DNA from: Gonatopus flavifemur
Taxonomy: Eukaryota; Arthropoda; Insecta; Hymenoptera; Dryinidae
Length of the DNA stretch: 64,000 bases
Direction of reading: 5' to 3'
NCBI GenBank assembly: GCA_018340375.1
Contig: JAFFJZ010000144.1
Span: 16,881-80,880 of the forward strand
The translations under genes and the position numbers were made by a program. Shown here in pieces: positions 13,266 to 62,980 of this stretch; the first letter of the stretch is position 1, and each line of letters starts with the position of its first letter. The notes under the pieces are model-generated. The model did no database searches, had not been told where the DNA came from, and was given only the letters and a program-made list of their open reading frames with translations.

Positions 13266-13269
13266 TTCT

Positions 13270-35620: not shown

Positions 35621-35636
35621 TATTATATTCAACCGA

Positions 35637-40165: not shown

Positions 40166-41877
40166 ATATTCATAGGACATTCAGTAAGCAGCTGATTCAA
40201 TTGGAAATTGTAACAATATGAAAAACCATCGGGGAACCTGAAACTTGTACGAAAGTCGTCGGTTGGTCGTTCCATAGTCGCTTTATATGTCCGCACTTGA
40301 TTTGCGAATAATTAACCCTGAGGTGAATCTTCCAATAGGATTATGATGCGGTTACAGCCTTTCTGAAGTAAGATATAAACCACAAATTGTAAACGAGATC
40401 GCGATCACATCAAAAAACGAAATCACCAGTGGATTTCCGAAAAAATCACCCTGTGGTCGTTTTAAGGTCGCTTCACGGTCATTTTCTCGTTTCCAATCCA
40501 AAATGAACTCTTTCCGATTACTTCCCGTGATTGTTATCCATGCGCGTGATTTACATATTCATAGGACATTCAGTAAGCAGCTGATTCAATTGGAAATTGT
40601 AACAATATGAAAAACCATCGGGAAACCTAAAACTTATACGAAAGTCGTCGGTTGGTCGTTCCATAGTCGCTTCATATGTCCGCACTTGATTTGCGAATAA
40701 TTAACCCTGAGGTGAATCTTCCAATGGGATTATGATGCGGTTACAGCTTTTCTGAAGTAAGATATGAACCACAAATTGTCAACAAGATCGCGATCAAATC
40801 ACAACACGAAAGTATCGGTGGATTTCAGAAAAAGTCACCCTTTGTTCGTTCAAGGTCGCTTTACGGTCGTTTTCTCGTTTCCAATCCAAAATGAACTCTT
40901 TCCGATTACTTCCCGTGATTGTTATCCATGCCCGTGATTTACATATTCATAGGACATTCAGTAAGCAGCTGATTCAATCTGAGATTGTAACAATATGAAA
41001 AACCATCGGGAAACCTAAAACTTATACGAAAGTCGTCGGTTGGTCGTTCCATAGTCGCTTCATATGTCCGCACTTGATTTGCGAATAATTAACCCTGAGG
41101 TGAATCTTCCAATAGGATTATGATGCGGTTACAGCCTTCCTGAAGTAGGATATAAACCACAAATTGTCAACGAGATCGGGATCAAATCAAAAAACGAAAG
41201 TATCAGTGAATTTCCGAAAAAGTCACCTTTTGGTCGTTTTAAGGTCGCTTTACGGTCGTTTCCTCGTTCCCAATCCAAAATGAACTCTTTATGAGTTTCT
41301 CACGGGATTAGTATCCTTCCGTTCAATTCACATATCAATAGCCCTCTCAGTGAACACATACTCATGCATTCTGAAATAACAATTATATGAAAGACAAATT
41401 CATTTGACCTGAACATTATGTGAAAGTCGTTTGTTAGTCGTTCCAGGGTCGTTTCGTCGCAGTGATGCCAGATTCGGCCGACCCACTCGGTTTACCCTCT
41501 CCATCGACCCCACGCACACAACGAAACCTTCATCCATGTGTTCGAAGTCATTCGTTTCACTTCGCGTAGGCTCGGACAAACGAGAGAGAACTAATTATCC
41601 GTCGATCTTTGTTCTCTCTCGTTGTCCTACAATCGGCCAACTCCGTGCATGATCGGGAAAAGTTTAAAGCCCATGCGGTCGAATCACAGAAAAGTCTTAC
41701 TGCTCTTTCTTTGCCAGGCAATGATTTTATTATAATCAGTATCGAACTAACTTACCCGGCGCCCCGGCTGAGAATTGCCTGGGGCCCTTCGATATTTTTT
41801 TTTGTTTTTTTTTGTTTGACAATTAAGAAGCTAGTTCGATGCTGATTATGAAATGAAATTGATGATATGCGCTCAGA

Positions 41878-42362
41878 TACTGAGAAGGTATACATATTAC
41901 GTTTATGAACTACAGTAACTATGTAAAATGAGAAATCATGCATAGAATAATAACATATTAATTTCTACAGGAATTAAAAATAGTTTCAACACTATGCACT
42001 AATACTAAAAAAAAATTGACTGATATTTAATTTAATTCAATTGAACATAATTAAATATCTATATTTTGTCATGAATCACATGTATCAATATTTTTATTGG
42101 ATTCAAAATTTTCATCATAATTGATATTGTGATTCATGACAAAATATAGATATTTAATTATATTCGATTGAATTGAATTAAATATCAGTCAATTTTTTTT
42201 TAGTATTATTGATTTTGACGAACAATAAATTTTTATGCATAGTATTGAAACTATTTTTAATTCCTGTAGAAATCAATATGTTATTATTCTATGCATGATT
42301 TCTCATTTTACATAGTTACTGTAGTTCATAAACGTAATATGTATACCTTTTCAACATCTGAG
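41878..42362. repeat. Palindrome within the left arm
   Basis: CTGAGAAGGTATACATATTACG to the left is answered by CGTAATATGTATACCTTTTCA to the right (shown here only in part: GGTATACATATTACG). The arms continue through AGAAATCATGCATAG and AAATATCTATATTTTGTC toward the centre near 42105. Its mirror is at about 61700-62180. Confidence 0.75.
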
Positions 42363-42425
42363 CTCATAGCTTAGTGGCAGAGGCAACGGCTTTCGCGCAG
42401 GAGCGGCCGGGTTCGATTCTGCTCA
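42359..42425 (+). ncRNA. tRNA-like sequence in left arm
   Basis: A-box-like TAGCTTAGTGG (42367-42377) and B-box-like GGTTCGATTC (42410-42419) have near-tRNA spacing, and TGAGC/GCTCA at the edges could form a 5-bp acceptor stem. The anticodon and T stems do not pair properly, so a tRNA pseudogene or SINE head is more likely than a working tRNA. The mirror copy is on the minus strand at 61627-61693. Confidence 0.45.
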
Positions 42426-42766
42426 ATTGACTCACTACCTTTGTTTTTGTTTCAAAATCAATCATGAAAAAATTGATTTGTTTCCTCAATGAGAGAGGAA
42501 CAACCCTAATGAATGCATCAATATTTTTACTACCATTGCATGTATATTTTGAAAAATCGAAATGAATATTTTTATCATGTGATGATTGTTTTTCTTTCAG
42601 AATAGGATTCATGGTATCGTCTACACATATAAATTTATATGTTGTTGGTCGATCAATCTTATTTTCGATTTTGGCTCCCGTAGGTTTTTAGAAATAGAAA
42701 GATTTTCATTTCAGGTCGATTTGTAAATTGTACACGGAAGAAAATGATGTTGTTGATATTTTGACA

Positions 42767-42975
42767 CACTAACAGAAAGGATCTCTTGAAACAAGAAAAT
42801 TTTTCTTGCCGCTGTGACAAAACTCATTTTTTTCTTGTGCCCAGAAAATCTCTTCTGAAATCAAAACCAATTTTTCTTGATTCAAGTAAAATTTTCTAGG
42901 CTCAAGAAAGAAAAATGAGTTTTGTCCCAGCGGCAAGAAAAATTTTCTCATTTCACGAGAACCTTTCTGTGAGTG
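42767..42975. mobile_element. CACTNACAGAAAGG foldback MITE, copy 2
   Basis: It begins CACTAACAGAAAGGATC and ends CCTTTCTGTGAGTG, with the same palindromic arms as 7699-7922. Confidence 0.75.
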
Positions 42976-42988
42976 CAACGAAAAATTA

Positions 42989-45900
42989 CACAGGCCTGCG
43001 AAATTTGACTTTTTTCCCCTCAAACAATAATATCTTTTTCCGAAGCATTTTGATCCGCTGAATCCGAATCTGGCTGCAGAATTGCTCTATCACGTCAGGT
43101 TTTGAGATATTTCGACCTAAAATGTGAAAAACACTGTTTTCGACATATTTGGGGTTACGTAAAGTCGAAGGGTAATTTTTTCTCAAAACCAATACATGCA
43201 CCTCAAAGTATAAGTCCTCCTCTTCCAAATGCCGTTGAGTTTGCTCAGCTCCCTTGCGTTTTCAGTGCGATACGACCGTTTGAAAATTGTGTCTCCACCT
43301 ATTTATTGAGTACATGAGCGCACAAATTTAAAATTGTCGTATCTCAATGAAAAAAAAAGATATTTCAGCAAACTCAACGGCATTTGGAAGAGGATGACTG
43401 ATACTTTGAGGTGCATCTATTGGTTTTGTGAAAAAAATTACCTTTCGACTTTACGGAACCTCAAATATGACAAAAACAGTGTTTTCCACATTTTTAGGTC
43501 GGAATATCCCAAATACCTGACGTGATATAGCAATTCTGGAGCCATATGCGGATTCAGCGCACCAAAATGCTTCAGAAAAATGTTGAATGAATGAAGGGGA
43601 TTGACTTTGGATTGTATTCTACATGAAACATCTTGAGTAGGCCAGGCGCATCACAACGATACGCTAAATTTTTTTCTTGAGCGAAATACGGTAGAAAATG
43701 CTTATAGCATATCACATAAATATATATTTATGCAATATGCTACACTATTATAATCGGACGCCTACAAAATTCTCGCGCCGGGCGGTAATATCCTTCGAGC
43801 CAGCACTGCTGAGATCGTAGATTGTTTGTTGCTATGTTCAGACATTATTCCACTAATTCACTCGGAATGTACTGATTGTTGTTCTAATTTTTTCCTCCGT
43901 GTACAAGTATCGAGTGTCCAGTAATTGTTGTGAATTTCGTGTATTTAAAAAAGTTTCACAAATGGCTTCTCGAAAATGTATCAATGCTCCAGATAACTTC
44001 TGCTACATATGTGGAAATTATGTAATAAAGAGACAGCAACAAATAATTTCTAAATGTATTGAAGAACTATACGATAGCTATTTCAAAATCAACATAAAAA
44101 ACCAAGACAAACAATGGGCGCCTCATAAAGTGTGTTCGACATGTGTACGTGAACTTCGGAAATGGTCAAGAGGAGAAAAACATTGTTTTGTTTACAGACT
44201 CAATGATTTGGATGGAACCGCAAAATCATATCAACGATTGTTACTTCTGCTGTTCAAACATAAAAGGATTTAATTCTAAAAATAAAGCAGCGATAAGTTA
44301 TCCTGATATTCGTTCTGTGATTTTACCTACGTATAAAGATCCTGATAGCAAAGAGTTATGCCATCCTGCCCAACCATTTTCATCTGATCCTAGTTTATTT
44401 CAAGAGGCTATAATGAATACTTCAGATCCTGACGATGAATATTACGAGTGCAACGAAACACCACCACTGTTTTCTCAAAGTGAATTGAATGATTTGACAA
44501 GAGATCTTAATCTTCCGAAAGATGCTGCGGAATTACTCGGTTCCAGATTGAAAGAAAAAACATGCTGGATCGTACAACGAACTTTTATTGGTATAGAAAT
44601 AGAGAGAAGGATTTTCTACCGTATTTTGCTCAAGAAAAAATTTAGTGTATTGTTGTGATGTGCCTGGCCTACTCAAAATGTTTGATGTAGAATACAATCC
44701 AAATGATTGGAGACTTTTTATAGATTCTTAGAAACGGAGCCTCAAAGTAGTATTGTTACATAATGGTAATAAATTTGCTTCTTTGCCTATTGGACATTCT
44801 ACTCATTTGAAAGAATGTTATGAAAATTTGGATTTCGTCCTCAAAAAATAAATTACTCCAATCATAACTGGACTATATGTGGTGATCTCAAAATATTAAC
44901 TATGTTGCTTGGTCAACAAGGAGGGTATACAAAATACCCTGTTTTCTATGTGAATGGGATAGTAGGAATAGAGCACGACATTGGATCCAGAAAGATTGGC
45001 CACAGAGAGCATCATTGAACCCTGGAAGTAAAAATGTTGTACACGAAACACTAGTTGACCGCTCCAAAATTCTGCTACCTCCGCTTCATATCAAATTAGG
45101 CATTATGAAGCAATTCGTAAAGGCATTGCCTAAAGATGGTCTTTGTTTCATATATTTATGTGATAAATTCAAGCATTTATCGGATGCGAAGATAAAAGAA
45201 GGCGTTTTTGTTGGTCCAGACATAAGGAAATTGATGCAAGATCCTGACTTTGAAAAAACTATGAATAAAACCGAGAAGCTCGCTTGGAAGTCATTTAAGG
45301 AAGTCGTACAACATTTTTTAGGGAACAGAAAAAGCCCTGATTATGAAAATATAGTCAACAGCATGCTTAACAATTCCAAAACCCTGGGTTGTAATATGAG
45401 TATAAAACTCCATTATTTGCATTCCCATATTGACTTTTTCCCCGAGAATCTTGGTGCTGTCAGTGAAGAGCAAGGGGAGAGATTTCATCAAGACCTTAAG
45501 GTTATGGAGACCAGATATCAAGGAAGGTGGGACGTTAGAATGATGGCTGACTATTGCTGGATGTTAAAGAGAGATGAACCGAATCATGAGTACAACAGAA
45601 AGAGATCAAACAGAAGTTTTGAAGAAACTAGAAAAAGATATCATAAGTCCTTTTGATTTATCTAGTATCTTAGGTCTTGTTTGAAACCAGTGCAGCCCCA
45701 TGTCTGAATTTTATATAAAACGTATATATTTTTCGTTCATACAAATTGTTTAAAAAACTGTAAATATTCATATCTCACATAAAAATGAATCTCGATGTGC
45801 TGTAAAAAAACTGGCGTTATATTTTAGTTCCACAATCTGAATACCTGGAAAGGAACCATTATTGTTCGAAGGGAAAATAAAAACTTATATTCCGCAGGTC

Positions 45901-46720
45901 TGTGAATTATCAACCCTTTGGGGAACCCATTTTTTTGAAGGAAATTTTCCTTGAATATGTGAACATATAAGTTTTTGGGTCGCTGAATAAGAATATCATA
46001 TTAGAAAATTAGAATTTTCATTCCCATACATCCTGGCAGCACCCTCAGGAGATCCTAGAAATATTATAATCTTGGGGATATATTTCACAACTTGGAATAC
46101 TCGTAACTCTGCAAGGAGAAATTGTAGGTAACCGATTAATAGCTTATCTTGAAGAGTAAGAGTAGTACTGGATGATGCAATTAGAAGAAAAGACTAAAAA
46201 ATTGTGCACTCAGTACATGAATTCCAAAGTAATCAAAACCCATTTTCGTGGACCTAATCTTAAATATCTTGAAATGCTTACGCGATGGCCCAATCCTGAC
46301 TCCGGATTTGGATTCTACGCAGAAAATTACTTCAGAAAAGAGAATTTCATTTGAAGGAGAATTTCATTGTCGATCAGTGTAATAAATGCGAATACTCATT
46401 CTGTTGTTGGGACATATTACACAACTTAGAATGGTCGTAACTTTGCGAGAAAAAATCGTACATGAACGTTCAATAGCTCATTTTAAACGGGAAGAGTAGT
46501 GCAAATTGATGAAGTTGAGAGAAAAGATCAAAAAAATTTTATGCGTCCTGTACATAACCTCAAAAGTAGCGAAAAACCGCATTTTTCGCGTATTTACCCT
46601 CAGATATCTCAAAATCCTGACGTGATAGCCCAATTCTGGCTCCGGATTCGGATTCTACGCAGCAAATTACTTCGGAAAATGGTCACCAGTTCCAAGGGGG
46701 AAAAACCTCGCAGGCCTGTG
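42989..46720 (+). mobile_element. 3.7 kb DNA element with TTA duplication, left arm only
   Basis: It begins CACAGGCCTGCGA and ends TCGCAGGCCTGTG, a 13-bp exact-looking terminal inverted repeat. TTA is duplicated (42986-42988, 46721-46723), and the unoccupied site is in the mirror arm near 61065-61072, which reads GAAAAATTATCTATA on the minus strand. Subterminal repeats are present: 43040-43250 and 43370-43570 are inverted, while 46200-46340 and 46500-46690 are direct. A 3-bp duplication with CAC...GTG ends would suit Chapaev3-like (CMC) or Harbinger-like elements; I do not decide between them. It carries the broken gene at 43962-45656. Confidence 0.85.
43962..45656 (+). pseudogene. Transposon protein with N-terminal CYICG cysteine motif, broken
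   Basis: Begins at ATG 43962 with a Cys-rich segment (DNFCYICGNYV, then HKVCSTCVREL), a likely zinc-binding domain. A frameshift near 44190-44220 moves the coding sense into the frame ending at 44658 (WMEPQNHINDCYFCCSNIKGF; LNLPKDAAELLGSRLKEK). 44659-45014 retains the family's text with stops and frame changes (CDVPGLLK-like, FLCEWDSR-like). The last intact part, 45015-45656, reads LLPPLHIKLGIMKQFVKAL, FFPENLGAVSEEQGERFHQD and RWDVRMMADYCWMLKRD. I recognise this as a repeat-borne protein family that I recall from insect genomes and presume to be a transposase, from memory and without a search. At least two frameshifts and several stops make this copy inactive. Confidence 0.7.
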
Positions 46721-46729
46721 TTATCTATA

Positions 46730-47372
46730 CCCGTATGAAAATATTTGGCTGAAAAATTTCTGCAAAACCATGATAAATCTTCAAAGAACATCGCATTTTC
46801 TCTGAAAAACTTTGACAAACTCTGAGAATCCCTGAGATTTTTATGAAAAATCTAATAAATTTGGGACATTCTGTACAGACTGTTCTCAGAGTTTTTCAGA
46901 AACTTTCCAGAACTTTTCAGAGTTTTTTCGTTTGTTTGTAGACAAATAGGAACGAAATTCCGCTCTGAAAAAACTCTGAGAAATCGTCAACATTGGTCTG
47001 ATTATTGAAATATTCTGAAAACCTATAAATAAATGTATATGCTGAATTCAAATATCATATGTCAAAAAGTGTTTGAAAATTTTCAAATTCTTCTTCAATA
47101 GTCAGAAAAATGTTAATAATTTATCATCGTTTTGTCAGAAGTTTTTCAGATAGCAATTCCGTCCTCATTTCTCTGAAAAAAATGAGGAATCCTGAAAAAT
47201 TTCTGGAAAGCTCTGAAAAAATTTAGTACAGAATGTCCCAAATTTATTAGATTTTTCATAAGAATCTCAGAGATTCTCAGAGTTTTTCAGATTTTTGCAG
47301 AGAAATTGCGATGTTTTCCAGAGATTAATCATGGTTTTGTAGAAATTTTTCTGCGGAATATTTCCATACGGG
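46730..47372. mobile_element. CCCGTATG foldback element, ATA flanks
   Basis: It begins CCCGTATGAAAATATTTGG and ends AATATTTCCATACGGG, with ATA on each side. The arms carry TCTAATAAATTTGGGAC and its complement about the centre and many CTCTGA/TCAGAG words. The mirror is at 60419-61058, flanked by TAT. A half copy ending CATACGGG lies near 49925. Confidence 0.7.
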
Positions 47373-47516
47373 ATAGAAGTGATATTTCAGTTGTACAATG
47401 GAAATTATTGTTGCATTAGCCGAAATCTAGCCGTTGCAGCAATATTTTTGGCTATCCAAATATTAAACACGCGAAATAGCTACCACAGCTAATTCCTGAC
47501 TACCATAGCAAATCAT

Positions 47517-47885
47517 CCCTGGTAGAAATGTTACAAGTTCTTCTCTATGGCCGATGAGGCACTAGAAAAGGAAGAAGTAATTGAGAAAAACTAGCAAGGG
47601 GCTAGTCAATAACTGGTAAGTTGGATTCAACTAGCATTGATTGGGAAAACTAATGAGCTACCCGTCACTATCCACTAATCCAAACTAATTAATAATAAAT
47701 AGAGTAAAATCTTCTCTAATAATTACAAGTATTCACTCCAAGTATCCCTGGTAGAAATAAACTGTCAACGATGCCACGGAGTATCATAAAGATTGAATGC
47801 AAATGTACACGAAGAGGAGATTCACGCATTTTGGAGTGTAAAATTACACTCCCTCGCGCGAATGTACATCATATTTTTACCAGGG
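47517..47885. mobile_element. Two adjacent CCCTGGTAG elements
   Basis: The first (47517 to about 47743) starts CCCTGGTAGAAATGTTAC after AT and is the CTAG-rich family of 17590-17801. The second (47746-47885, 140 bp) starts CCCTGGTAGAAATAAAC, ends TTTTTACCAGGG, and has AT on both sides (47744-47745, 47886-47887). The mirror copies are 60046-60274 and 59906-60045. Confidence 0.7.
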
Positions 47886-48424
47886 ATAGATCGAATGGAT
47901 AGACATGAACGTTTTAATCTTGAAATGAATAAAATGTTTCCTGTGCTTATTATCAGAAAATACGGTATTTTTTATTGATTCCCTAGTGGAAATATTTCTC
48001 TGAGAATTTTTGAGAATCTCTGAAAACTCTCAAAATTCGAACATTCCCTGTAAATCTCTGTAAATTTTTATGGAGTTCAGAATGATTGTTTAAATCTCTG
48101 GAAATGTTCTGAGAATCTTTAAAAAACTCTCAAAATTAGAAATTCCATTAAATTGAACTCTAAAAATGAGCACGAATCGAGCAACGATAGTGGCATATTT
48201 GATAATAAGTGCAAATAATGTTTGATTCATTTCAAAACTAAAAAGTTGTCTTCTCTCAATTGTATCTATACTCTAAGTGAAGAGTTGTAGTTATTACTAT
48301 AGTATATACTCTCTACATTTCTAAGAGTGAAATTTTCTCTCTCAATTTGGAGTGCGTTGTGCGTTCACTCTTTTAGAATGATAAAATCACTTTAGCAGAA
48401 TGAATCTTTCAACTTTTCAAACTA

Positions 48425-48589
48425 CACTGAGAGAAATAATGACTGATATCAAGAATTTTAATTTATGAATACTGCCAAGGATGAAGATTCCTTTTGGACA
48501 AATAATATATCAGCTGTAATCAAGAATTTGTGTTATTGGCAGTATTCATGAATTAAAATTCTTGACATCAGTCATTATTTCTCTCAGTG
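48425..48589. mobile_element. 165-bp CACTGAGAG MITE with TA duplication
   Basis: A palindrome with ends CACTGAGAGAAATAATGAC and GTCATTATTTCTCTCAGTG and TA on both sides. The arms of about 50 bp differ at a few positions. The mirror copy is 59203-59367. Confidence 0.85.
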
Positions 48590-48949
48590 TAGAGTGAAAA
48601 GTATCACTCATAAGTACTGAGTGAATTACCTCACCCATTTGTGGATTAAAATCTCACCTTTCTTGAAGTGAAATATCCCAGCTCATTCATATTAAATCGA
48701 CGCTCAGATTTGAAATTTTTCTCACTGCTTGGGTTTGAATCTCCATCAAAGTTTTGTTCACTTTCAAGATAATCATTTCAATCTCTTGGAAACTCATAGA
48801 ATTCTCATATTAAAAGTGATGGTATAGATCTGAAATACCTTGGAGTTCTATATGATACCAGTAATTGATAATCCTTGGTGTAATTCAGACCATACCTTAT
48901 ATCTGAACTACAACTACTTTCTGATACTGAAAAGTACTGGTTGCAGTTA

Positions 48950-49200
48950 ATCGATACCATGTATTAATGAACAATAGGGGGTATATCATTCATCGATGAA
49001 CAATAATGGATATAGTTGATCCATACCATTCATCGATGAACAATAATGGATATAGTTGATTGATACCATTCATCGATGAAAAATATTGGATACAGTTGAT
49101 CCATACCATTCATCGATGAACAATATTGGATACAGTTGATCCATACCATTCATCGATGAACAATAATGGATATAGTTGATCCATACCATATAAACATCAA
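48950..49200. repeat. ~40-bp tandem repeat, five units, left arm
   Basis: Units of CATACCATTCATCGATGAAC followed by AATAATGGATATAGTTGAT(C) repeat with small changes (AATATTGGATACAG variants). The mirror is at 58600-58850. Confidence 0.85.
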
Positions 49201-50066
49201 CAGTACTGAGTATACTCAATCGATACTACATATTCTTGTAGGAAATCATATTCAAGTTGTGTAAAACTGTATATATGAATCTGAATGTTCATCTTATTTA
49301 TGGAATCGAGCAACTGTAGATCTCTTTCAATTCAATAAAACTATTGTAAAATGGAATCTTCCAAAAGGTTTCAAAATTGATATTCCAGTACTGGATCTAC
49401 TGACAGGCATGTCAGTTCTTTGGTTTGATTTTTTATGACAGTGTGTTTTCTGTAATTATTAAAGTTATACAAACAATTTTTCACAAAAACTCTGTAATTC
49501 TACACTTTTGAATCATAAAACATTCATGCTTAAACATAGTTTGAAGTTCTTCGTCTTATTTTCAGATATCCAATATCTCATACGCTGTTGACATTTTTCT
49601 CTTTATTGAAAAATCCTGAAATTCTATAAATACATTCATATGCTGTATTCAAATCTCATGCGTGAAAAAATGTTTGGAATCTTTCTCATTCCTTTCCAAA
49701 AGTCAGAAAAATATGAGCAACTCATCAGAGTCTTGTCAGATTTCTTTCTGAGCGCAATTTCGTTTGAAAAAAATGTAAAAACTCCGAAAAACTCTGGAAA
49801 AAGTCTGTAAAGGATGTCCCAGAACTATCAGATTTTTCATCAAATTTTCAAAGATTGTCAGAGTTCGTCAGTTTCTCAGAGATTATTCATAGTTTGCGGA
49901 CATTCTTCAGTGAAATATTTCCATACGGGAATATACTTACCATTAAACTTCGTATTTCACTCATAAGTTTCTCTATTACTTGCAGTGATGAAATGGAGAT
50001 TTCAAGAATAATATTATATGGATTGATAAAATAGATAGTCGTCATTAGAATCCGTATTTTAATCAC

Positions 50067-50153
50067 CCCAGATAGCATAAGAGTTTTCAAAGAGTTCATA
50101 AAGAATACAATGCATTCATATAGAACTCTTCCAGAACTCTCGTGCTATCTGGG
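50067..50153. mobile_element. 87-bp CCCAGATAGC foldback
   Basis: Ends CCCAGATAGCATAAGAG and CTCTCGTGCTATCTGGG, interior of GAGTTC/GAACTC words like 8124-8231. The flank is AT on one side. The mirror is 57639-57725. Confidence 0.65.
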
Positions 50154-50639
50154 ATGAGAGTCCTTGGTGGAAAAAATTTTTGAATGTGGTTGAATTTTAT
50201 TAAATTCTGTTGAATGTTGCTGAATTTCATTGAATTCCATGTTGAATTTCACTCACAAGTTGAACTCTCTTTTCATGAGAAATCAACAAGAAAATATGAA
50301 TTTCAACAAATTTCAATCAAATCCATTAAACTTTGCCAATTTTCTTTGATTTTTATCAAGATTCGTGGATTCTTGTCAATTTTGAATGAAAACAGTCCTG
50401 ATTGAGAATGAAATTCAACCAATTTTTTCTCGCCAATTATCTATATTTCAATCATAAGAATCTCTGTTACTCGCAGTGATGGAATTGAGATTTCAATAAT
50501 AGTAATATAAGGATCAACAAAATACATAGTTATGACGGATAGCAATCTTTTACTAGGGATGATATTGGTAAATATATACATTTACTACCTGCAAACAAAC
50601 ACCTTCATAATAGATATATTCTTGTGCTCAGAATCTAAA

Positions 50640-52860
50640 TCTTACCTCCAGGCTTCTCCCAAAGTGCATTCGCAAATTTTGTACTCCTTTCCACATCACC
50701 CATGAGGTAGAGTACAAGTGAATGCGTTTTTTTTTCTGAGCCCTCAGAGGAAAGATAGTTTAATCCCAGCCAGAAATACGAACCCATCGATTTCGGTCTC
50801 ATATCGACATGATATCTGGCTTTTCGAAAACAGATTGCAATCGAATAGAGGTCATGTGTTTGATATCAGTTCTAAATCAATGTTGTCTAAACTCCTTGAA
50901 ATGGAAATTCCCTCCCCAAAAGTGAAAATACTGTATAGTCAAACAAGAGTGAAATTCCACTTCTGAAAAGTAAGTTTCCATTCCATACAAATGTATTTCC
51001 ACACCCTCGGCGTGGGAACCTCACTCTTATGAAGGGTTCGAATTCCACCCTCCAAAGCGAGTTAGAATTCCACTTCCTTAGAGTGAAAGTTGATTCGTAT
51101 GGAGTGAAAACCTACTTTTTAAAAGTGAAATCCCAGTTTTGTCAACCTTGCTGTATTTTCTCTCTTTGAAAGTGAATTCCCCGCTTCAAGAAATTCAGAG
51201 AGTGTCATTTGCTTCCTGTTTGGGATTTGGAGTCGACATAAGTTATGTGTCTCACATAAAATTTTTGGATTGTTCTTTCGGATCATTTTGAAGGATATCT
51301 CAAAGAATTCGAAAAGATGTCTGATGAAATACCAGAAGATATCTTCTGGAAATCTTTACGGAGATTTCTTATAGTTTCCTGATGTTATCTTCCAGAATTT
51401 TCAAGAACATCTCCCGTCAAGATATTCTTAAGTCATCCTCAGCTGCTTCACGAGACATCTTCCCGAAACTGCAAGATATTTTCAAGAATGTTCCTGTAGA
51501 ATTCCTTAAAATTGTTATCTAAGAACCCATTTCAACTTATGCATTCTACCTTCCTCTCGGGGTTAACGTGGTGTCCCCAGTAGGCCTAGTCCACGATATT
51601 TTGAGAGGTGTCACACCACCTCCGTTTCCTCATTTTCCCCACCCTGGAGAGGCCCCTTGCGTATTAGCAATGACAATTGCTGTTTAAGCCCCGGATGGAG
51701 TGCTCCTTGTTGCTTCTTCCTTGACGCCTGAAACACTACAAAGCAGTAAGTGTAGTATTGAAACGACTGCCAAAAACGGTATAACACTCGCCCGACAGCC
51801 GAAAATGGGAGGATGTCATACGGACGGAGGAAAAGGCGGCAGTAACTACGAAATTGGAGAGTACTCCTTTTTTGGAGTAATTTTATAAGATTATGACTGT
51901 CTTCATTTTAATGAAAAAGGTAATGAAAAATTAGTCTATTCTGGATACTGTCATTGGAAATGAAGGTTAATTCATGCCATATGATCCTTGAATCAATTGG
52001 ATTTCAAATGCAGCCCTTCAAGAATCAGAAATTAGATTTGAAATATTGACTCAAACTATATTATCAATGCATAAACCGATAAAATAAATATCAATAAATA
52101 AAGAGAACCATGAATAATGTTTATATATATATATATATAATTCATAACGAAAATTATTAGAATTTACAGAAAATAACGGGAAATATGATCGATAATCCAG
52201 TTTACATGTGCAATATCGACATCCTCGATATTGCAATGAAACTGATTCGTCGATATTATACTATGAAATTTAATACTTATCATTAAAGATTAATAATTGA
52301 AAACTCAGAGGAATGCACAATCTAAGACCAGGACCCCGTGGTTCGTCACCTCCACAGTATTTAGAGACTCCAAACCTGCTTAGATGTGAGTGTGCATCAT
52401 TCTCATGCAAAAAAAAAACAATCAAAGCAGAGAGAAGTCCATTAGTCCTTGATATCTTCATTTGAAATGAAGGTACAGCTATTCCACAACATATCCAAAT
52501 CAATTGAATATCGAGTCTAACCTTTGAATGACTATAAACATGTCGATTGAGGAAATGAGTTCATAAACTACCTATGCACAGAAGATGTTTGATCATAAAC
52601 ATTTTAGATGAAGAATCTAAAAACGAAGAGAGATGCATGATCTAATATGAAAACCCGGTGGTTTGTCACTTTTACAGTATTTAAAGACGCTGAATCCTTT
52701 GAGAATATGTGCGCGGACGTATTTATTGGAGTTCATGGAAGAAATAATCGGAATGCAATGAAATTTTTAATGGTACCAAAGGAAACCTGCTCAATTTGGG
52801 AAGCTTGGGCTTGAAAATGAAATCGTAAAAATACCGATGTGAATCAAAGGAAAAGTACTA
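50640..52860. other. Core of giant element, upstream side of the inverted repeat spacer
   Basis: Single-copy in this window. 51260-51480 is a GATATCT/AAGATATC-rich stretch like 23277-23405. 51540-51880 is clearly richer in GC (GTGTCCCCAGTAGGCC, CCACCCTGGAGAGGCCCC) and may be a foreign fragment. A (TA)n run lies at about 52124-52139. Two similar stretches of about 100 bp (52290-52400 and 52610-52710) share GGTTCGTCAC/GGTTTGTCAC and ACAGTATTTA. No gene was supported here; the transposase ends at 52863. Confidence 0.5.
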
Positions 52861-52862
52861 CA

Positions 52863-55498
52863 TTACCCTGCGTATAGATGTAATCCACTTGGCTTTTTTG
52901 ATGATTGGGAACCTCCATACAAATTCTCAGAATTCATCAAAGCCAAGTGACCTTCATCAATAGACATGGTACGAGCATTGGCTTTCCTACTTTTCAATAA
53001 AGATTTGACAACGCAACTCGAGTTCAATGTTTGAGGACCCAGCTTATTCCTTTTTTTGGTTTTGTTATCAGGAATTATGGAAAACGCCCTTTCCGCTGAG
53101 GCCATCGAATGGGGAAGAGTCCTAATTGTGGAAGAAAGCATTCGCAGGTTCGGAAACTGTATATCTCCATCACTGGTACAGAGAGAACTAATTCGCATCC
53201 AGGCGTGATCAAAATCAAGCTTTGCTATATCACGCTTCAAAGTCAGATCTAAAAAATACAAAGAATTCCATTCTTCCCTTGATGCATCTTCATCAAAACC
53301 ACCTACGTTCCGACTAGCGTGAATGATCATCAAGGAAGTTCTGACTCGATCAGATTCAAATAAAGCGATATCTGTTTTGAACGCAGTGAGATGATATAAG
53401 AAACGATCGTTTATTGGAAGCCGTCTCAAAATTTCTGTGGAAGCAATGACGTAAAATTGTAAAAATTTCTGGCGTACCTCATGCACTGTTGAAATGTTGG
53501 AAGAATCGAGCTTTCCTAAATATTCTTCGCATTCACTGCCTAAGTCTATTTCCTCCAAAGGTAATTGGTGCTCGGTTGAAGAAAAATCCATACGATTAAT
53601 CGAGTCTAACCCCTTTATGGATTCAGGTTTCAGAAATTTTCTTAAGAAAAATGCTAGAAAATCAAGGGAGCGTGGTTGCAATAAGTGAACCATTGTTTGT
53701 TCTCTCTGAAAAGACGCATTATACCTATTGAATTGATTGAGAGTATACGATAAAAATAGGAAGTACGCTTTCATCGTAAGATCCTTCATAAGATTGTGAA
53801 ATTTTTCAGCAGGTTTACAATGCTTGGAGGACACTTGTTCAGACAAAAAGTGATCCAGAGTGTTCCAGTTCTCTAATATTCTCACAATGCATTTATGACG
53901 GCTCAACCAACGAGTTTTTCCGAACTTCAAGATTTGTAAATTACTCTCTTGAAAACTATCCTGGAAATCTTTGAATATCGCAGTTCTTTTAGGACTACCA
54001 TTGATGAAAGTAGCTAAACCTGCAATCAATTGCTCACAATCTGGAGGAAGCGCGGCGCAAGCAGTACTTGCTGCCAAAGCGGAAGAATGAAAAACACATG
54101 GGAACACCAAAACCTGTGGATTTTTTTCCATCAATTTGGTCTTGAAAGAAGATCTATTTCCCATCATTACAGCAGCGTTGTCAGTACCTAATGCAATGAT
54201 GTTACTAATCGGAATTTGATTTCGCCATAATGCATTCCTAGAGCTTTCAAACAATTGCGGAGCAGAGCAATCAGCAGCGTCTAAATGGATCATTTGCAAC
54301 AATTCACATTTGACTTCTAACGTATTTGGCGCAACAACATAAAGAGCCATTAATGTCATCCATTTATCGTTGGTTATATCTGACGTTTCGTCTTCGTGAA
54401 CTGAAAATTTTGTGTGGCGTAAAACATCCGATAATCGGTTTGTTTCTTCAACGCAAACAATCTTATTCAAGATATTGGTTAATTTTGTACGACTCGTTGA
54501 CATTTTTTGCAGAACTTCTGGTTCCTTCCCTATATCTTGCATAAGGAGCAATAAGTCCTTCGCATGAATATAAGGAATACTTTTTTCTGCAAAAAATGTC
54601 GCGTAACGAATTTCCGCCGTCTGAACTTTCGTCTTGAGAGTTGTTGAGGACCCATCGTCCAGGTTGGAAGTTTCTGGGTCAATTATTCGCTGACACTGTG
54701 GCGGAGTAGAAGATGAAGCAGCATTCAATTGAGAAGCAAGATTTTCATGTTGGGAGTATCCTGAAAGAACATTATTTGAAGAAGAGGATGCAGGAGGATC
54801 GTTACTACCCGAATTTTCAAATGCTTCAGCAGGTTTCCGGAAAAATCTATCGGAATTTCCAACTGGGTTATCATCAAGAAAATAATAAACGTCTAATACG
54901 CGACTGATAGACGAATCATTATCATCCCTAGCAGGAAGAGGATTGGATTCTTGAAGAAAGTCTGAATTCTCGTACCCCATACAAACGGTATTCGATTGAG
55001 CGATATTATCATGACTTTGCGCATCCATTGGAGTGTTATAATGGTATGAACGAAGAGTGTCAGTACCATCTATAACAATCCTATCATCAGAAGACAGAGG
55101 AATAGGATTGACGCATTGCCCTTCTGGTAATATCTCATCAAAAGACGAAGCTTCCGGACCTGTCGATTTGAGATTTTTATCATCTGCACAAGTTTTAGAG
55201 GGAGAAATAGAAGAATTCAAATTACCTCGGTCGAAATCGAATAATTTTTTGAGTTGCAGATGCTGTTGACTTTTGGCATGTTTTCTGATTCTTGCAGGGC
55301 CATCACATCAAACACTTTTTCGGCATATATCACAAACAATTTTGAACTATCACTTGGTTCTTCACGAACCCACAATTTCCACTCCGGGTCTTCAATCAAC
55401 CAGTTTTGCGAAAAATGTGGATTGTTTTTTTTTCTTTTATTAATCACGAATTCACTAACCTCCATTCTAAACAGAATAAATATTTCCAAATATAACAA
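52863..55498 (-). pseudogene. hAT transposase, core of the giant element (two frames)
   Basis: Upstream frame 55498-55217 (start proposed at the MEVSEFV methionine) carries a BED-like N-terminal domain, SQNWLIEDPEWKLWV. The zinc-ligand positions usual in relatives are changed: KLFVIYAEKVFD has Val and Ala where FCxxC is expected, and the distal histidines are missing. The main frame, 785 codons counted from TTG at 55220, holds a Ser/Asn-rich linker to about residue 195 and then the RNase H-like hAT core: DETSD near 277, TDNAAVMMG with Asp347, CVFH (375-378), TRWLSRHK, and the C-terminal dimerisation motif LPHSMASAERAF with Glu710. The putative D-D-E triad is present. A GTAATT...TGTGCAG segment of 42 nt joins the frames but does not keep phase, so either a one-base indel or different splicing applies. 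It would act on the CAGTG ends in the nucleus. Confidence 0.82.
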
Positions 55499-55751
55499 AC
55501 CAAGCGAAAAGATAGAACACAGAATTCATCAAAATGGAATCGAATTAATCACTTGAAACTTTTTCCAGTTATTAAAACATAAAACTTCATGCAATGATTC
55601 GAAACTGAATGTTATTCATAAACGCCAACCTCCTCGGTCCGTATCACATATGCAATAGATGACAGAAGCGAAAAACATAAACAGTTGGTGTCGCACGGCG
55701 CGTAGTGTTTTGTTTTCTAAGTACGTGGGCGATTTGAAAATCGCATCCTTT

Positions 55752-56254
55752 CCCGAAGGGAACATGAAGCTCCGACGAACGTTCAGAATAGATCATGATA
55801 GATCAGACTGAAGCTCCGTTGGAGCTCAAGTTTAGATTCGGAAACGTTCGACGAAGGTCCGATGAACGTTGAAATGTCCGCTTGAAAAAAGCTTAAATGA
55901 AGGTTCATAGAACGTTTATTAAAGATTCTACGAAGATTCATTCAACCTTCAGTTTTTTATGTTTCAGACGGAATTACAATTATAGTTAGAAATGCCTCAA
56001 TCTTTCATTTTTTCGTGGAAAAATATACTTTGAAAAAAACTTTGATCGAAAAATTGCAACTCGAACGAACCTTTAGCAGACGTTCGATGAACGTTTTATG
56101 AACGTTCATTCAAACTATTTTCAAGTGGACATTTCAACGTTCATCGGACCTTCGTCGAACGTTTACGAATCTAAACTTGAGCTCCAACGGAGCTTCAGTC
56201 TGATCTATCATGATCTATTCTGAACATTTGTCGGAGCTTCATGTTCCCTTCGGG
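55752..56254. mobile_element. 503-bp CCCGAAGGGAAC foldback with TT flanks
   Basis: Left end CCCGAAGGGAACATGAAGC, right end GCTTCATGTTCCCTTCGGG, TT on both sides (55750-55751, 56255-56256). The arms of about 180 bp pair through AGCTCCGTTGGAGCTCAAG and GACGAAGGTCCGATGAACG. It lies upstream of the transposase and appears to interrupt a minus-strand reading frame (see 56258-56465). Confidence 0.8.
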
Positions 56255-56257
56255 TTG

Positions 56258-56465
56258 GTACAATACAGTGCATGAACAAGATTTCTTGATAAATGCTTTT
56301 TGAATATATACATCGATACATTTTGAGGATCAATGTAATTTTCATCAGATTCCAAAGAGGATTTTACACGGGAGAAAACGTCTGAAAAATTAGTACATTC
56401 CTCAATCGCAGAATTAACAGGATAAGTGGAAATATCACTCCCATCGTTAGACAGTCTAGCAAAAT
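56258..56465 (-). pseudogene. Possible upstream exon of the transposase gene
   Basis: On the minus strand an open stretch reads LSNDGSDISTYPVNSAIEEC, then DVFSRVKSSLES and IDPQNVSMYIFKKHL, ending against the foldback element. A candidate acceptor TTTTGCTAG precedes it. Codon usage looks coding but no domain is recognised and no start codon is clear. It could be a lost 5' exon or an unrelated remnant. Confidence 0.3.
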
Positions 56466-56859
56466 TGTATTACAACTTTAAGTGTAAACATGGCGTCTCC
56501 TATATAATCGAATACTCATTTTTGTTACACCGTCTATTGACAGGAGTATTATGCCCCCTTATTCTGTGAATCCTGCTGGGTAAAAGAGATCAAAACGAAT
56601 TCGAAAAAATGAATAGAATTGAATGCGTTTTCTTGTTTCAATGTTTAGAATTGAAGATGATTGAAATCATATTACTCTTAGAACTGAGAACAATTCGAAC
56701 CACTATCATTTTACACGAATTCATAATGGTGAGAATGTAACATAATGCGAAGTTGTGTCGAATTTTAATTAATTCAACAGCATTGATATAAATGCACATA
56801 AACGAAAAGAAGTAGGTTATACAGACTGGAATATTGATTACTAAATATGAGGACAAATA

Positions 56860-59800
56860 TCTAGATTCTAAGCACAAGAATATATTTATTATAAAGATGT
56901 TTGTTTGCAGGTAGTAAATGTATATATTAACAAATATCATTTTATTAAGAGCAAGGAGAAAAGGAAGTTCGTAAAATAATATAAGATTTTCACAACTACT
57001 ATTTACAGTTGCTTAGAGTGAGAAAACAATATTATGGAAAAAAAATCATTCCCTGGGAAATGACTCCGGGCTCGTATGCTTGGGGTTAGTCACCTTGCCC
57101 GCTCGGGTACCGAAGCTGGTTTCGATATGGTTGAAATGTAGCTATACTTAGAGTACGTCTAATTTTCAAAATATTTCTATCTGAACAACTTTGTGGTTCG
57201 TATTTGATTTCCATTGAGAAAGGAGAGTATAATGATTATTGAGAGATTGCTATCCGTCATAACTATGTATTTTGTTGATCCTTATATTACTATTATTGAA
57301 ATCTCAATTCCATCACTGCGAGTAACAGAGATTCTTATGATTGAAATATAGATAATTGGCGAGAAAAAATTGGTTGAATTTCATTCTCAATCAGGACTGT
57401 TTTCATTCAAAATTGACAAGAATCCACGAATCTTGATAAAAATCAAAGAAAATTGGCAAAGTTTAATGGATTTGATTGAAATTTGTTGAAATTCATATTT
57501 TCTTGTTGATTTCTCATGAAAAGAGAGTTCAACTTGTGAGTGAAATTCAACATGGAATTCAATGAAATTCAGCAACATTCAACAGAATTTAATAAAATTC
57601 AACCACATTCAAAAATTTTTTCCACCAAGGACTCTCATCCCAGATAGCACGAGAGTTCTGGAAGAGTTCTATATGAATGCATTGTATTCTTTATGAACTC
57701 TTTGAAAACTCTTATGCTATCTGGGGTGATTAAAATACGGATTCTAATGACGACTATCTATTTTATCAATCCATATAATATTATTCTTGAAATCTCCATT
57801 TCATCACTGCAAGTAATAGAGAAACTTATGAGTGAAATACGAAGTTTAATGGTAAGTATATTCCCGTATGGAAATATTTCACTGAAGAATGTCCGCAAAC
57901 TATGAATAATCTCTGAGAAACTGACGAACTCTGACAATCTTTGAAAATTTGATGAAAAATCTGATAGTTCTGGGACATCCTTTACAGACTTTTTCCAGAG
58001 TTTTTCGGAGTTTTTACATTTTTTTCAAACGAAATTGCGCTCAGAAAGAAATCTGACAAGACTCTGATGAGTTGCTCATATTTTTCTGACTTTTGGAAAG
58101 GAATGAGAAAGATTCCAAACATTTTTTCACGCATGAGATTTGAATACAGCATATGAATGTATTTATAGAATTTCAGGATTTTTCAATAAAGAGAAAAATG
58201 TCAACAGCGTATGAGATATTGGATATCTGAAAATAAGACGAAGAACTTCAAACTATGTTTAAGCATGAATGTTTTATGATTCAAAAGTGTAGAATTACAG
58301 AGTTTTTGTGAAAAATTGTTTGTATAACTTTAATAATTACAGAAAACACACTGTCATAAAAAATCAAACCAAAGAACTGACATGCCTGTCAGTAGATCCA
58401 GTACTGGAATATCAATTTTGAAACCTTTTGGAAGATTCCATTTTACAATAGTTTTATTGAATTGAAAGAGATCTACAGTTGCTCGATTCCATAAATAAGA
58501 TGAACATTCAGATTCATATATACAGTTTTACACAACTTGAATATGATTTCCTACAAGAATATGTAGTATCGATTGAGTATACTCAGTACTGTTGATGTTT
58601 ATATGGTATGGATCAACTATATCCATTATTGTTCATCGATGAATGGTATGGATCAATTGTATCCAATATTGTTCATCGATGAATGGTATGGATCAACTGT
58701 ATCAATATTTTTCATCGATGAATGGTATCAATCAACTATATCCATTATTGTTCATCGATGAATGGTATGGATCAACTATATCCATTATTGTTCATCGATG
58801 AATGATATACCCCCTATTGTTCATTAATACATGGTATCGATTAACTGCAACCAGTACTTTTCAGTATCAGAAAGTAGTTGTAGTTCAGATATAAGGTATG
58901 GTCTGAATTACACCAAGGATTATCAATTACTGGTATCATATAGAACTCCAAGGTATTTCAGATCTATACCATCACTTTTAATATGAGAATTCTATGAGTT
59001 TCCAAGAGATTGAAATGATTATCTTGAAAGTGAACAAAACTTTTGATGGAGATTCAAACCCAAGCAGTGAGAAAAATTTCAAATCTGAGCGTCGATTTAA
59101 TATGAATGAGCTGGGATATTTCACTTCAAGAAAGGTGAGATTTTAATCCACAAATGGGTGAGGTAATTCACTCAGTACTTATGAGTGATACTTTTCACTC
59201 TACACTGAGAGAAATAATGACTGATGTCAAGAATTTTAATTCATGAATACTGCCAATAACACAAATTCTTGATTACAGCTGATATATTATTTGTCCAAAA
59301 GGAATCTTCATCCTTGGCAGTATTCATAAATTAAAATTCTTGATATCAGTCATTATTTCTCTCAGTGTAGTTTGAAAAGTTGAAAGATTCATTCTGCTAA
59401 AGTGATTTTATCATTCTAAAAGAGTGAACGCACAACGCACTCCAAATTGAGAGAGAAAATTTCACTCTTAGAAATGTAGAGAGTATATACTATAGTAATA
59501 ACTACAACTCTTCACTTAGAGTATAGATACAATTGAGAGAAGACAACTTTTAGTTTTGAAATGAATCAAACATTATTTGCACTTATTATCAAATATGCCA
59601 CTATCGTTGCTCGATTCGTGCTCATTTTTAGAGTTCAATTTAATGGAATTTCTAATTTTGAGAGTTTTTTAAAGATTCTCAGAACATTTCCAGAGATTTA
59701 AACAATCATTCTGAACTCCATAAAAATTTACAGAGATTTACAGGGAATGTTCGAATTTTGAGAGTTTTCAGAGATTCTCAAAAATTCTCAGAGAAATATT

Positions 59801-62588
59801 TCCACTAGGGAATCAATAAAAAATACCGTATTTTCTGATAATAAGCACAGGAAACATTTTATTCATTTCAAGATTAAAACGTTCATGTCTATCCATTCGA
59901 TCTATCCCTGGTAAAAATATGATGTACATTCGCGCGAGGGAGTGTAATTTTACACTCCAAAATGCGTGAATCTCCTCTTCGTGTACATTTGCATTCAATC
60001 TTTATGATACTCCGTGGCATCGTTGACAGTTTATTTCTACCAGGGATACTTGGAGTGAATACTTGTAATTATTAGAGAAGATTTTACTCTATTTATTATT
60101 AATTAGTTTGGATTAGTGGATAGTGACGGGTAGCTCATTAGTTTTCCCAATCAATGCTAGTTGAATCCAACTTACCAGTTATTGACTAGCCCCTTGCTAG
60201 TTTTTCTCAATTACTTCTTCCTTTTCTAGTGCCTCATCGGCCATAGAGAAGAACTTGTAACATTTCTACCAGGGATGATTTGCTATGGTAGTCAGGAATT
60301 AGCTGTGGTAGCTATTTCGCGTGTTTAATATTTGGATAGCCAAAAATATTGCTGCAACGGCTAGATTTCGGCTAATGCAACAATAATTTCCATTGTACAA
60401 CTGAAATATCACTTCTATCCCGTATGGAAATATTCCGCAGAAAAATTTCTACAAAACCATGATTAATCTCTGGAAAACATCGCAATTTCTCTGCAAAAAT
60501 CTGAAAAACTCTGAGAATCTCTGAGATTCTTATGAAAAATCTAATAAATTTGGGACATTCTGTACTAAATTTTTTCAGAGCTTTCCAGAAATTTTTCAGG
60601 ATTCCTCATTTTTTTCAGAGAAATGAGGACGGAATTGCTATCTGAAAAACTTCTGACAAAACGATGATAAATTATTAACATTTTTCTGACTATTGAAGAA
60701 GAATTTGAAAATTTTCAAACACTTTTTGACATATGATATTTGAATTCAGCATATACAGTTAGTTATAGGTTTTCAGAATATTTCAATAATCAGACCAATG
60801 TTGACGATTTCTCAGAGTTTTTCAGAGCGGAATTTCGTTCCTATTTGTCTACAAACAAACGAAAAACTCTGAAAAGTTCTGGAAAGTTTCTGAAAACTCT
60901 GAGAACAGTCTGTACAGAATGTCCCAAATTTATTAGATTTTTCATAAAAATCTCAGGGATTCTCAGAGTTTGTCAAAGTTTTTCAGAGAAAATGCGATGT
61001 TCTTTGAAGATTTATCATGGTTTTGCAGAAATTTTTCAGCCAAATATTTTCATACGGGTATAGATAATTTTTCGTTGCACTCACAGAAAGGTTCTCGTGA
61101 AATGAGAAAATTTTTCTTGCCGCTGGGACAAAACTCATTTTTCTTTCTTGAGCCTAGAAAATTTTACTTGAATCAAGAAAAATTGGTTTTGATTTCAGAA
61201 GAGATTTTCTGGGCACAAGAAAAAAATGAGTTTTGTCACAGCGGCAAGAAAAATTTTCTTGTTTCAAGAGATCCTTTCTGTTAGTGTGTCAAAATATCAA
61301 CAACATCATTTTCTTCCGTGTACAATTTACAAATCGACCTGAAATGAAAATCTTTCTATTTCTAAAAACCTACGGGAGCCAAAATCGAAAATAAGATTGA
61401 TCGACCAACAACATATAAATTTATATGTGTAGACGATACCATGAATCCTATTCTGAAAGAAAAACAATCATCACATGATAAAAATATTCATTTCGATTTT
61501 TCAAAATATACATGCAATGGTAGTAAAAATATTGATGCATTCATTAGGGTTGTTCCTCTCTCATTGAGGAAACAAATCAATTTTTTCATGATTGATTTTG
61601 AAACAAAAACAAAGGTAGTGAGTCAATTGAGCAGAATCGAACCCGGCCGCTCCTGCGCGAAAGCCGTTGCCTCTGCCACTAAGCTATGAGCTCAGATGTT
61701 GAAAAGGTATACATATTACGTTTATGAACTACAGTAACTATGTAAAATGAGAAATCATGCATAGAATAATAACATATTGATTTCTACAGGAATTAAAAAT
61801 AGTTTCAATACTATGCATAAAAATTTATTGTTCGTCAAAAATCAATAATACTAAAAAATTGACTGATATTTAATTCAATTCAATCGAATATAATTAAATA
61901 TCTATATTTTGTCATGAATCACAATATCAATTATGATGAAAATTTTGAATCAATAAAAATATTGATACATGTGATTCATGACAAAATATAGATATTTAAT
62001 TATGTTCAATTGAATTAAATTAAATATCAGTCAATTTTTTTAGTATGAGTGCATAGTGTTGAAACTATTTTTAATTCCTGTAGAAATTAATATGTTATTA
62101 TTCTATGCATGATTTCTCATTTTACATAGTTACTGTAGTTCATAAACGTAATATGTATACCTTCTCAGTATCTGAGCGCATATCATCAATTTCATTTCAT
62201 AATCAGCATCGAACTAGCTTCTTAATTGTCAAACAAAAAAAAACAAAAAAAAATATCGAAGGGCCCCAGGCAATTCTCAGCCGGGGCGCCGGGTAAGTTA
62301 GTTCGATACTGATTATAATAAAATCATTGCCTGGCAAAGAAAGAGCAGTAAGACTTTTCTGTGATTCGACCGCATGGGCTTTAAACTTTTCCCGATCATG
62401 CACGGAGTTGGCCGATTGTAGGACAACGAGAGAGAACAAAGATCGACGGATAATTAGTTCTCTCTCGTTTGTCCGAGCCTACGCGAAGTGAAACGAATGA
62501 CTTCGAACACATGGATGAAGGTTTCGTTGTGTGCGTGGGGTCGATGGAGAGGGTAAACCGAGTGGGTCGGCCGAATCTGGCATCACAG
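56860..62588 (-). repeat. Right arm of the giant inverted repeat
   Basis: Mirror of 41460-50640, lacking the TTA-flanked element. It differs by a segment at about 56946-57240 that has no counterpart on the left. That segment includes a GC-richer stretch (CCGGGCTCGTATGCTTGGGG, TTGCCCGCTCGGGTACCG), so it is an insertion in this arm or a deletion in the other. Mirrored subfeatures: tandem repeat 58600-58850, MITE 59203-59367, CCCTGG elements 59906-60274, foldback 60419-61058, CACTNACAG MITE 61078-61286, tRNA-like 61627-61693 (minus) and palindrome about 61700-62180. Confidence 0.85.
61078..61286. mobile_element. CACTNACAGAAAGG foldback MITE, copy 3
   Basis: Mirror of 42767-42975; begins CACTCACAGAAAGG and ends CCTTTCTGTTAGTG. 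Confidence 0.75.
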
Positions 62589-62980
62589 TTTCGTCGTTCT
62601 TGTTACGTTGCCGCGTCCCTGCTTCGGTAGGCGTGATTAGTTCCTCCCTCGCTCCCCTCTTCGCCACGTGTCCTTTACTCAAGCTCCGCCCCTCACGCTC
62701 AACGCGTTCCGTTGTCCCGAGCCGATTTCCTTCCAAAATTCCTCTTTCTCAAACGATCCAAACAGTACCTCAATCATCGAATTTCAGCATGATGTTTATG
62801 TCAGTTGATAGATCAGAGCCTCTACTTAATGATGCTTCTTCGATTTTTTCCCTACGCTCAATTATTCTTTGAAAACACGAATTTCTCTCAAAGTCGCTTT
62901 ACGGTCGTTCCTAGGTCGCTTTATTGAACAAAACGACAGTCGTTTCATGGTCGTTTCGTGGTCGTTCAGTTCTACCAGGG

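Follow-up and report, generated by a model that had tools for sequence, protein, structure and literature searches.

How a DNA transposon of the hAT superfamily could come to carry mirror-image ends of more than 5 kb, and what keeps such ends alike, is the question raised by a locus in the hymenopteran Gonatopus flavifemur. The locus lies in a 64,000-nucleotide stretch of contig JAFFJZ010000144.1 (the window, to which all positions given without a locus handle refer), and we confirmed that its positions 41460-62588 are a single hAT insertion. Based on this element and its relatives in the same genome, we consider it very probable that they represent a hAT cut-and-paste lineage with kilobase inverted ends, whose arms are ancient and have been repeatedly homogenised within elements. 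The features that define the insertion are as follows.

41460-62588, no strand assigned: whole hAT element, 21,129 bp (target-site duplication, arm comparison, chance test and family comparison)
41452-41459, no strand assigned: target-site duplication (TSD), left copy TTTCGTCG (flank comparison)
62589-62596, no strand assigned: TSD, right copy TTTCGTCG (flank comparison)
41460-41471, plus strand: left terminus CAGTGATGCCAG, a 12-bp motif that is invariant in the aligned family representatives (sets of 9 and 8)
62577-62588, minus strand: right terminus CTGTGATGCCAG, with one mismatch to the family motif (end comparison)
29389-30038, minus strand: unoccupied paralogue of the target site (match to the joined flanks)
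30318-30969, minus strand: unoccupied paralogue of the target site (match to the joined flanks)
31615-32265, minus strand: unoccupied paralogue of the target site (match to the joined flanks)

The perfect 8-bp duplication borders the element on both sides. When the flanks were joined with one copy of TTTCGTCG, the product aligned in one contiguous stretch of 649 bp to each of three sites in the window (91-93% identity), which shows that TTTCGTCG is a real TSD and that the element ends are exact. The two termini differ only at base 2 (CAGTG on the left, CTGTG on the right). In a chance test based on 20 mononucleotide shuffles, 16-bp termini adjoining an exact 8-bp repeat matched at 15/16 in the element and at no more than 13/16 in the shuffles; the other real pairs that scored at least 13 were palindromic 8-mers within both arms, which are trivial matches, and six further terminal pairs scored 11, i.e., at the shuffle level. 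The CAGTG-type ends and the 8-bp duplication that had been proposed in the initial annotation were therefore borne out, with one mismatch at the right end. Between these ends, the element is built of the following parts.

41460-42988, plus strand: left arm, outer part (self-comparison)
42989-46720, plus strand: secondary DNA transposon, 3,732 bp, in the left arm only, TSD TTA, ends CACAGGCCTGCGA (arm comparison)
46724-50548, plus strand: left arm, inner part (self-comparison)
57244-62588, minus strand: right arm, 5,345 bp, inverted copy of the left arm (self-comparison)
50559-50643, plus strand: inner non-homogenised inverted block, left (six substitutions in the first 79 bp relative to the right copy)
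56856-56940, minus strand: inner non-homogenised inverted block, right (comparison with the left copy)
56941-57236, no strand assigned: 296-bp heterology on one side only, adjoining the inner edge of the homogenised arm (arm comparison; similar gap at the same place in the relative C218a)
41460-41850, plus strand: conserved subterminal arm block, of which about 380-400 bp can be aligned across subfamilies; mirror copy at the other end (alignments)

A self-comparison of the window paired 41462-42988 with 62586-61065 and 46721-50548 with 61067-57244 as inverted matches at 99.5-99.8%. The left arm measures 5,354 bp with the insert excluded and the right arm 5,345 bp, and they enclose a 6.7-kb core (50549-57243) that holds the hAT transposase frame. 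The inverted arms and the transposase in the core had been recognised from the start, and only the sizes had to be corrected, from about 5.5 kb to slightly less for the arms and from about 6.2 kb to 6.7 kb for the core. The arms differ from each other in 15 places, five substitutions and 10 insertions or deletions (indels). Many indels fall within base runs or next to them; some may be sequencing error, and assembly polishing could have hidden or created small differences. Substitutions affect five of about 5,350 arm positions, compared to six of the 79 inner-block positions (Fisher P = 3.4e-9). The only tandem repeats found in the arms of the window element are a 40-bp array and a short 30-bp repeat, and palindromic blocks make up 31% of the right arm compared to 14% outside the element.

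The gene in the core is, by family and by predicted fold, that of a hAT transposase, as had been proposed.

52863-55307, minus strand: hAT transposase frame, 814 codons, with the catalytic core and the C-terminal dimerisation region (Pfam, homologues, fold and residues)

The hAT dimerisation region PF05699 was matched at residues 717-767, just above the cut-off (22.2 bits against 21.4), and by all 10 aligned transposases, the window's own included, while all eight PDB fold matches of the predicted structure with E ≤ 0.001 were the Hermes transposase. Homologues numbered 23, with identities of 36-52%, and PF05699 was listed for 11 of them; the named homologues were all hymenopteran (Prorops, Venturia, Lasioglossum, Cotesia and several ants). 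Across 10 sequences, D306, D376, E679, C404 and W467 were invariant and H407 nearly so, and we take the first three to be the catalytic D, D and E residues. The CxxH motif occupies residues 404-407. Both CxxH and the W are described for hAT transposases and for those of Mutator-like elements (MULE) in an excerpt of PMC5225508, and no MULE family was reported among the Pfam matches of the window transposase and the aligned members. Directly upstream of the 814-codon frame, a frameshift and a stop disrupt the zinc-finger N-terminal part, which is spread over different frames; with its transposase gene damaged in this way, the window copy would need help from its relatives. In the relative C396, the zinc-finger part is intact within a single 850-residue frame that starts at an ATG. 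A genome-wide protein search returned 64 matches with 55 of 942 candidates scored, and its counts are therefore lower bounds: at least 11 matches span residues 1-813 or 1-814, and at least five of these, the window among them, have no stop in the matched part.

The relatives were sought in the 636-Mb assembly of 402 contigs from which the window comes. The first 401 bp of the arm had at least 46 genome matches (40 of 871 candidates scored), and the ends of two other subfamilies had at least 40 (40 of 795) and at least 42 (40 of 846). Loci were retrieved mainly where convergent pairs of ends were seen, and the 20 that were tabulated are thus a selected set that gives no frequency; TSDs were scored in 19 of them, C351 being left out because its left end is non-canonical, and C375, in which a single exact 12-mer end was found, was left unscored. 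A perfect 8/8 duplication was present in 12 of the 19 rows, which represent 11 independent insertions because the window and C12 are one insertion on two contigs. The eleven duplications all differ: TTTCGTCG, GTACAGAG, TTTCCAAT, GGTTGGAG, CTCCCATT, ATTTGGTG, CTTGAGAT, TCTACAAT, AGTGGGAT, CGACCGTC and TTTCCAGC. Four further rows (C348, C391, C219 and C360) had 7/8 duplications. The target motifs of the hAT groups (Ac, Buster and Tip) are nTnnnnAn or nnnTAnnn; among the 11 perfect TSDs, three fit the former and none the latter. The independent insertions therefore share CAGTGATGCCAG, or a close variant of it, as their terminus, and most have a distinct 8-bp TSD. This is the opposite of the copies ending elsewhere that would have spoken against the initial annotation, and its foldback-like architecture in a hAT lineage proved to belong not to a lone locus but to a family with several subfamilies.

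The members range from 3.7 to 21 kb, 17 of the 19 scored rows exceeding 5 kb, and their inverted arms, where unbroken, from about 0.9 to 5.4 kb: 5.4 kb in the window, 3.3 kb in two blocks in C391, 2.85 kb in C218b, 2.3-2.5 kb in C396, C361, C346 and C323a, 2.0 kb in C370, 1.9 kb in C251 and 0.87 kb in C348. In C377 and C360, the first unbroken arm block measures 1.66 and 1.44 kb, with more arm beyond tandem repeats, and insertions or deletions interrupt the arms of C229, C218a and C219. A hAT match was absent in seven of the 20 loci (C46, C348, C229, C370, C207, C351 and C392). In one subfamily, whose members measure 11-12.6 kb, the arms reach 2.5 kb and some transposase frames are uninterrupted. 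Because of such frames, the perfect duplications and the 98-99% likeness between copies, the families look recently active. Across subfamilies, the subterminal DNA can be aligned for about 380-400 bp, after which similarity fades. The core and inner arm of C396 are largely collinear with those of the window element at about 71-84%, and the layout accordingly appears older than the split of their subfamilies.

Three loci deserve separate description. The region C12:56836-90836 is the window insertion on a second contig (99.2% over 23 kb); this contig also holds a second copy of an 8.4-kb piece, and it may be a haplotig or a real duplication. C207:1626224-1632676 is a complete 6.45-kb palindrome with family ends and no TSD, the halves of which are 99.9% identical. 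C218b (C218:48656743-48672566) is a hAT element without a TSD whose 2.1-kb flanks are mirrored at about 99.5%; its near-identity of 99.6% over 4,992 bp runs about 2.1 kb past both element ends, and neither a family terminus nor a TSD was found at the outer limit of the mirrored identity.

The age of the arms can be judged from the independent copy C218a, which has its own TSD. Its cores and those of the window are 90.7-96.3% identical in four main blocks, and its arms lie 4.5% from those of the window, whereas the window's own arms are 0.07% substitutions apart; the two arms of C218a itself differ by 4.15%. In C218a, the inner end of the arm is retained on either side and the inner block comes after it; as in the window, the gap between them is short at one arm and about 300 bp at the other. 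The long arms therefore predate the split of the two copies, and without homogenisation the arms of the window should differ at least as much as the window differs from C218a.

Six copies of the 11-12.6-kb subfamily (C323a, C360, C346, C361, C396 and C377) were further compared over the outer 1,440 bp of their arms, because tandem repeats blur comparisons of the longer, 2.46-kb arms. The two arms of one element were 98.75-99.86% identical. Between elements, same-side arms averaged 99.20% and opposite-side arms 99.21%, and thus there was no side signal. An inner block of 218 bp behaved otherwise: its two copies in one element shared 77.0-78.3% identity, whereas copies from different elements were 98.8 and 99.2% identical if taken from the same side and 77.7% identical if taken from opposite sides. 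It lies beyond a one-sided gap in all six copies, as it does in the window and C218a. Of 15 informative outer-arm sites, 13 were common to both arms of each carrier and none was common to same-side arms only; 2,000 label permutations gave a mean of 1.2 concordant sites and a maximum of 5. In the outer-arm tree, the arms were sisters in four of the six elements (C323a, C360, C346 and C361). These sequence comparisons show that the outer arms of one element evolve in concert and that the inner block beyond the one-sided heterology does not. With the 2.46-kb arms, the within-element values were 95.75-99.63% for the six elements and 90.36% for C392, the between-element means were 96.0% (same side) and 95.9% (opposite sides), and sister arms were recovered only for C361 (without support), C360, C323a and C392.

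Several observations weigh against an old hAT lineage with homogenised arms. The predicted transposase structure is of moderate confidence only (mean predicted local distance difference test score, pLDDT, 59.5), and the N-terminus of the window transposase is broken. A TSD is absent in three of the 19 scored loci, namely C46, the left end of which is damaged, the full palindrome C207, and C218b with its mirrored flanks. The arms of C396 and C377 are not sisters in the outer-arm tree, and the tree of the longer arms is less clear, with the arms of C346 failing to pair. Moreover, the arms of the older copies C46, C348, C218a and C229 are 4-8% apart, which indicates that homogenisation is not continuous. 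Finally, repeated re-duplication of one end would leave the same picture as the proposed gene conversion.

The content of the arms bears on what they are. No Pfam match above the curated cut-off was obtained among the 10 of 24 listed frames that were scanned (seven from the right arm and three from the core), and no Rfam match reached the gathering threshold in the arms. The subterminal block includes a G+C-rich hairpin followed by a long T run. Its single-strand folding is stronger than that of shuffles on both strands, and it gave weak microRNA-family matches far below the gathering scores. An RNA is disfavoured by the covariation term, which is unfavourable (+1.08 kcal/mol, with two-sided change in six of 100 pairs), and the block is therefore better read as conserved DNA, likely a transposase-binding or promoter region. 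Two other arrangements were rejected: a nested hAT element within the core, for which no credible TSD and terminal pair was found, and arms that are two complete smaller hAT elements, since a CAGTG-type terminus is absent at their inner edges, 50548 and 57244. Among viral contigs, no protein relative was found; a search with end patterns gave 34 stretches for the 16-base pattern and at least 120 for the 14-base pattern. The window element had no blastn match at E ≤ 1e-5 among the loci compared.

That the mirror arms are an assembly artefact, i.e., a mis-joined haplotype or a chimeric read, is hardly credible. The mirror in the window stops exactly at the TSD, and the flanks are not mirrored (score 10 against a shuffle maximum of 16) but together rebuild an unoccupied site that is present three times; the same layout, with its own TSDs, occurs in relatives on other contigs, some of 20-53 Mb. 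What could be held in favour of an artefact is that C12, a contig of 192 kb, repeats the window locus with an extra copy of the 8.4-kb piece, perhaps as a haplotig or through a local assembly problem, and that the flanks of C218b are mirrored without a TSD. It is also very unlikely that the hAT gene is an unrelated passenger within a foldback-type element of some other kind. Such a composite would fit the lack of a recognised gene in the seven right-arm frames tested and the loci that have arms and no hAT match, although gene-less copies are expected as deletion derivatives. The core, however, has no convincing TSD with hAT-like ends, and the 8-bp TSDs and CAGTG ends of the whole are consistent with hAT. 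Moreover, arms, core and hAT gene occur together in C218a, an independent insertion of the same subfamily, as well as in the 11-12.6-kb subfamily.

The main rival to gene conversion is the re-duplication of one end at each transposition, in which the arms would be made anew by an inverted duplication during transposition or repair, e.g., through template switching. The near-identity of the arms in young elements agrees with it, as do the complete palindrome of C207 and the arm identity that runs 2.1 kb beyond the ends of C218b, which end-copying would give. We nevertheless regard it as unlikely, because the inner block recurs past the one-sided gap in all six copies of the 11-12.6-kb subfamily, in the window and in C218a, which suggests that the arm boundary was inherited and not freshly made at random places. 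The initial annotation had left the choice between gene conversion and recent formation of the arms; the C218a and six-copy comparisons favour repeated homogenisation of old arms, with re-duplication as a possibility.

Homogenisation is most likely to proceed by arm-to-arm gene conversion up to the fixed heterology. In such a scheme, the transposase would bind the ends and the subterminal block, excise the element and reinsert it elsewhere. The arms would pair as a stem or via strand invasion, for example, when a break or an excision gap is repaired. One arm would then serve as the template for the other, and copying would stop at the internal heterology or, on the outer side, at the flanking DNA. 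This would make the arms ancient in the lineage and yet new-looking in many copies. C218b hints that the copying may extend outward into host DNA, although it is one locus and another cause, including assembly, is possible. More tentatively, arm-to-arm copying may be part of the life cycle, with excision or breakage followed by repair from the opposite arm and with the long arms as an end-matching adaptation; we consider this conceivable but doubtful. If true, such repair would renew both ends together and keep their binding sites matched, and it would occasionally overrun an end and incorporate flanking DNA into the palindrome, of which C218b may be an example.

With regard to known systems, the element belongs to the hAT superfamily and has a foldback-type architecture. 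It shares with Hermes, BuT2 and Ac the transposase fold and motifs, the 8-bp TSD and the CAGTG-type termini. Elements of the superfamily are described as 2.5-5 kb long with terminal inverted repeats (TIRs) of 10-25 bp (excerpt of PMC3942097). These values, which are typical and not defining, are departed from by the present family, with 3.7-21 kb and, where unbroken, TIRs of about 0.9-5.4 kb. Where captured sequences are discussed in a grapevine survey, certain hAT elements are described as unusually long, and long TIRs are unmentioned in the excerpted part of that paper (PMC2528002). No hAT element with kilobase arms appeared in the titles and beginnings of abstracts of the papers listed in a search of the open PubMed Central, with subscription journals and Repbase lying outside the search. 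The nearest analogue in form is Galileo of Drosophila, a member of the P superfamily, which in the excerpted text has long TIRs with internal tandem repeats, TIR-only copies and chimeric copies without a matching TSD (PMC3573991). Its own features, as excerpted, are a P-type transposase, a 7-bp TSD and TIRs of up to about 1.26 kb, and its longest-TIR copies in D. mojavensis are without a transposase open reading frame (PMC3573991, PMC2775673). The present family was found to have a hAT transposase and 8-bp TSDs instead, along with longer arms, and its long-armed copies retain the gene. Foldback (FB) of Drosophila is described, in an excerpt of PMC2775673, as having very long inverted repeats and a capacity for rearrangement. 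Such repeats are present here as well, a likeness of architecture and not of kinship; unlike in FB, the tandem repeats of the window arms are limited to the two described above, and the larger elements carry a hAT transposase. Long TIRs and TSDs of 8-10 bp are also known from Mutator-like elements such as Muta1 (excerpt of PMC5225508), which differ from the present family in that its transposase is hAT by family and predicted fold.

Other mobile and repetitive DNA accompanies the element. The secondary transposon in the left arm (42989-46720) has a 256-codon frame, for which 2,302 of 2,387 candidates were homologues; most of the 120 that were listed are unnamed, and the named ones are from arthropods and one frog. 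The left arm of C12 has an insert at the same place. At 8742-13331, there are frames that read from the sequence as another DNA transposon with C2H2-like fingers, one of them with four of 23 homologues listed with PF02992 (Transposase_21), and two overlapping frames at 26669-27833 resemble a mariner transposase that a frameshift has disrupted. At 16013-17074 and 34183-35352 lie two related palindromes, each about 1.1 kb long and almost wholly self-complementary (84-89%), and further inverted matches around the second one reach 33637-35622. Tandem arrays of a 65-bp unit are located at 1422-2846 and 38467-39571, and 388-bp arrays at 32116-33284 and 40166-41290.

These results mean that kilobase mirror ends, which are known from Foldback and Galileo, occur in the hAT superfamily as well. 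The inner block provides a built-in control that separates homogenised from non-homogenised sequence within one element, and conversion rates and tract limits in transposon ends consequently become measurable from genome data. By analogy with Galileo, inverted repeats of this length should also promote breaks and inversions in the genome of their host.

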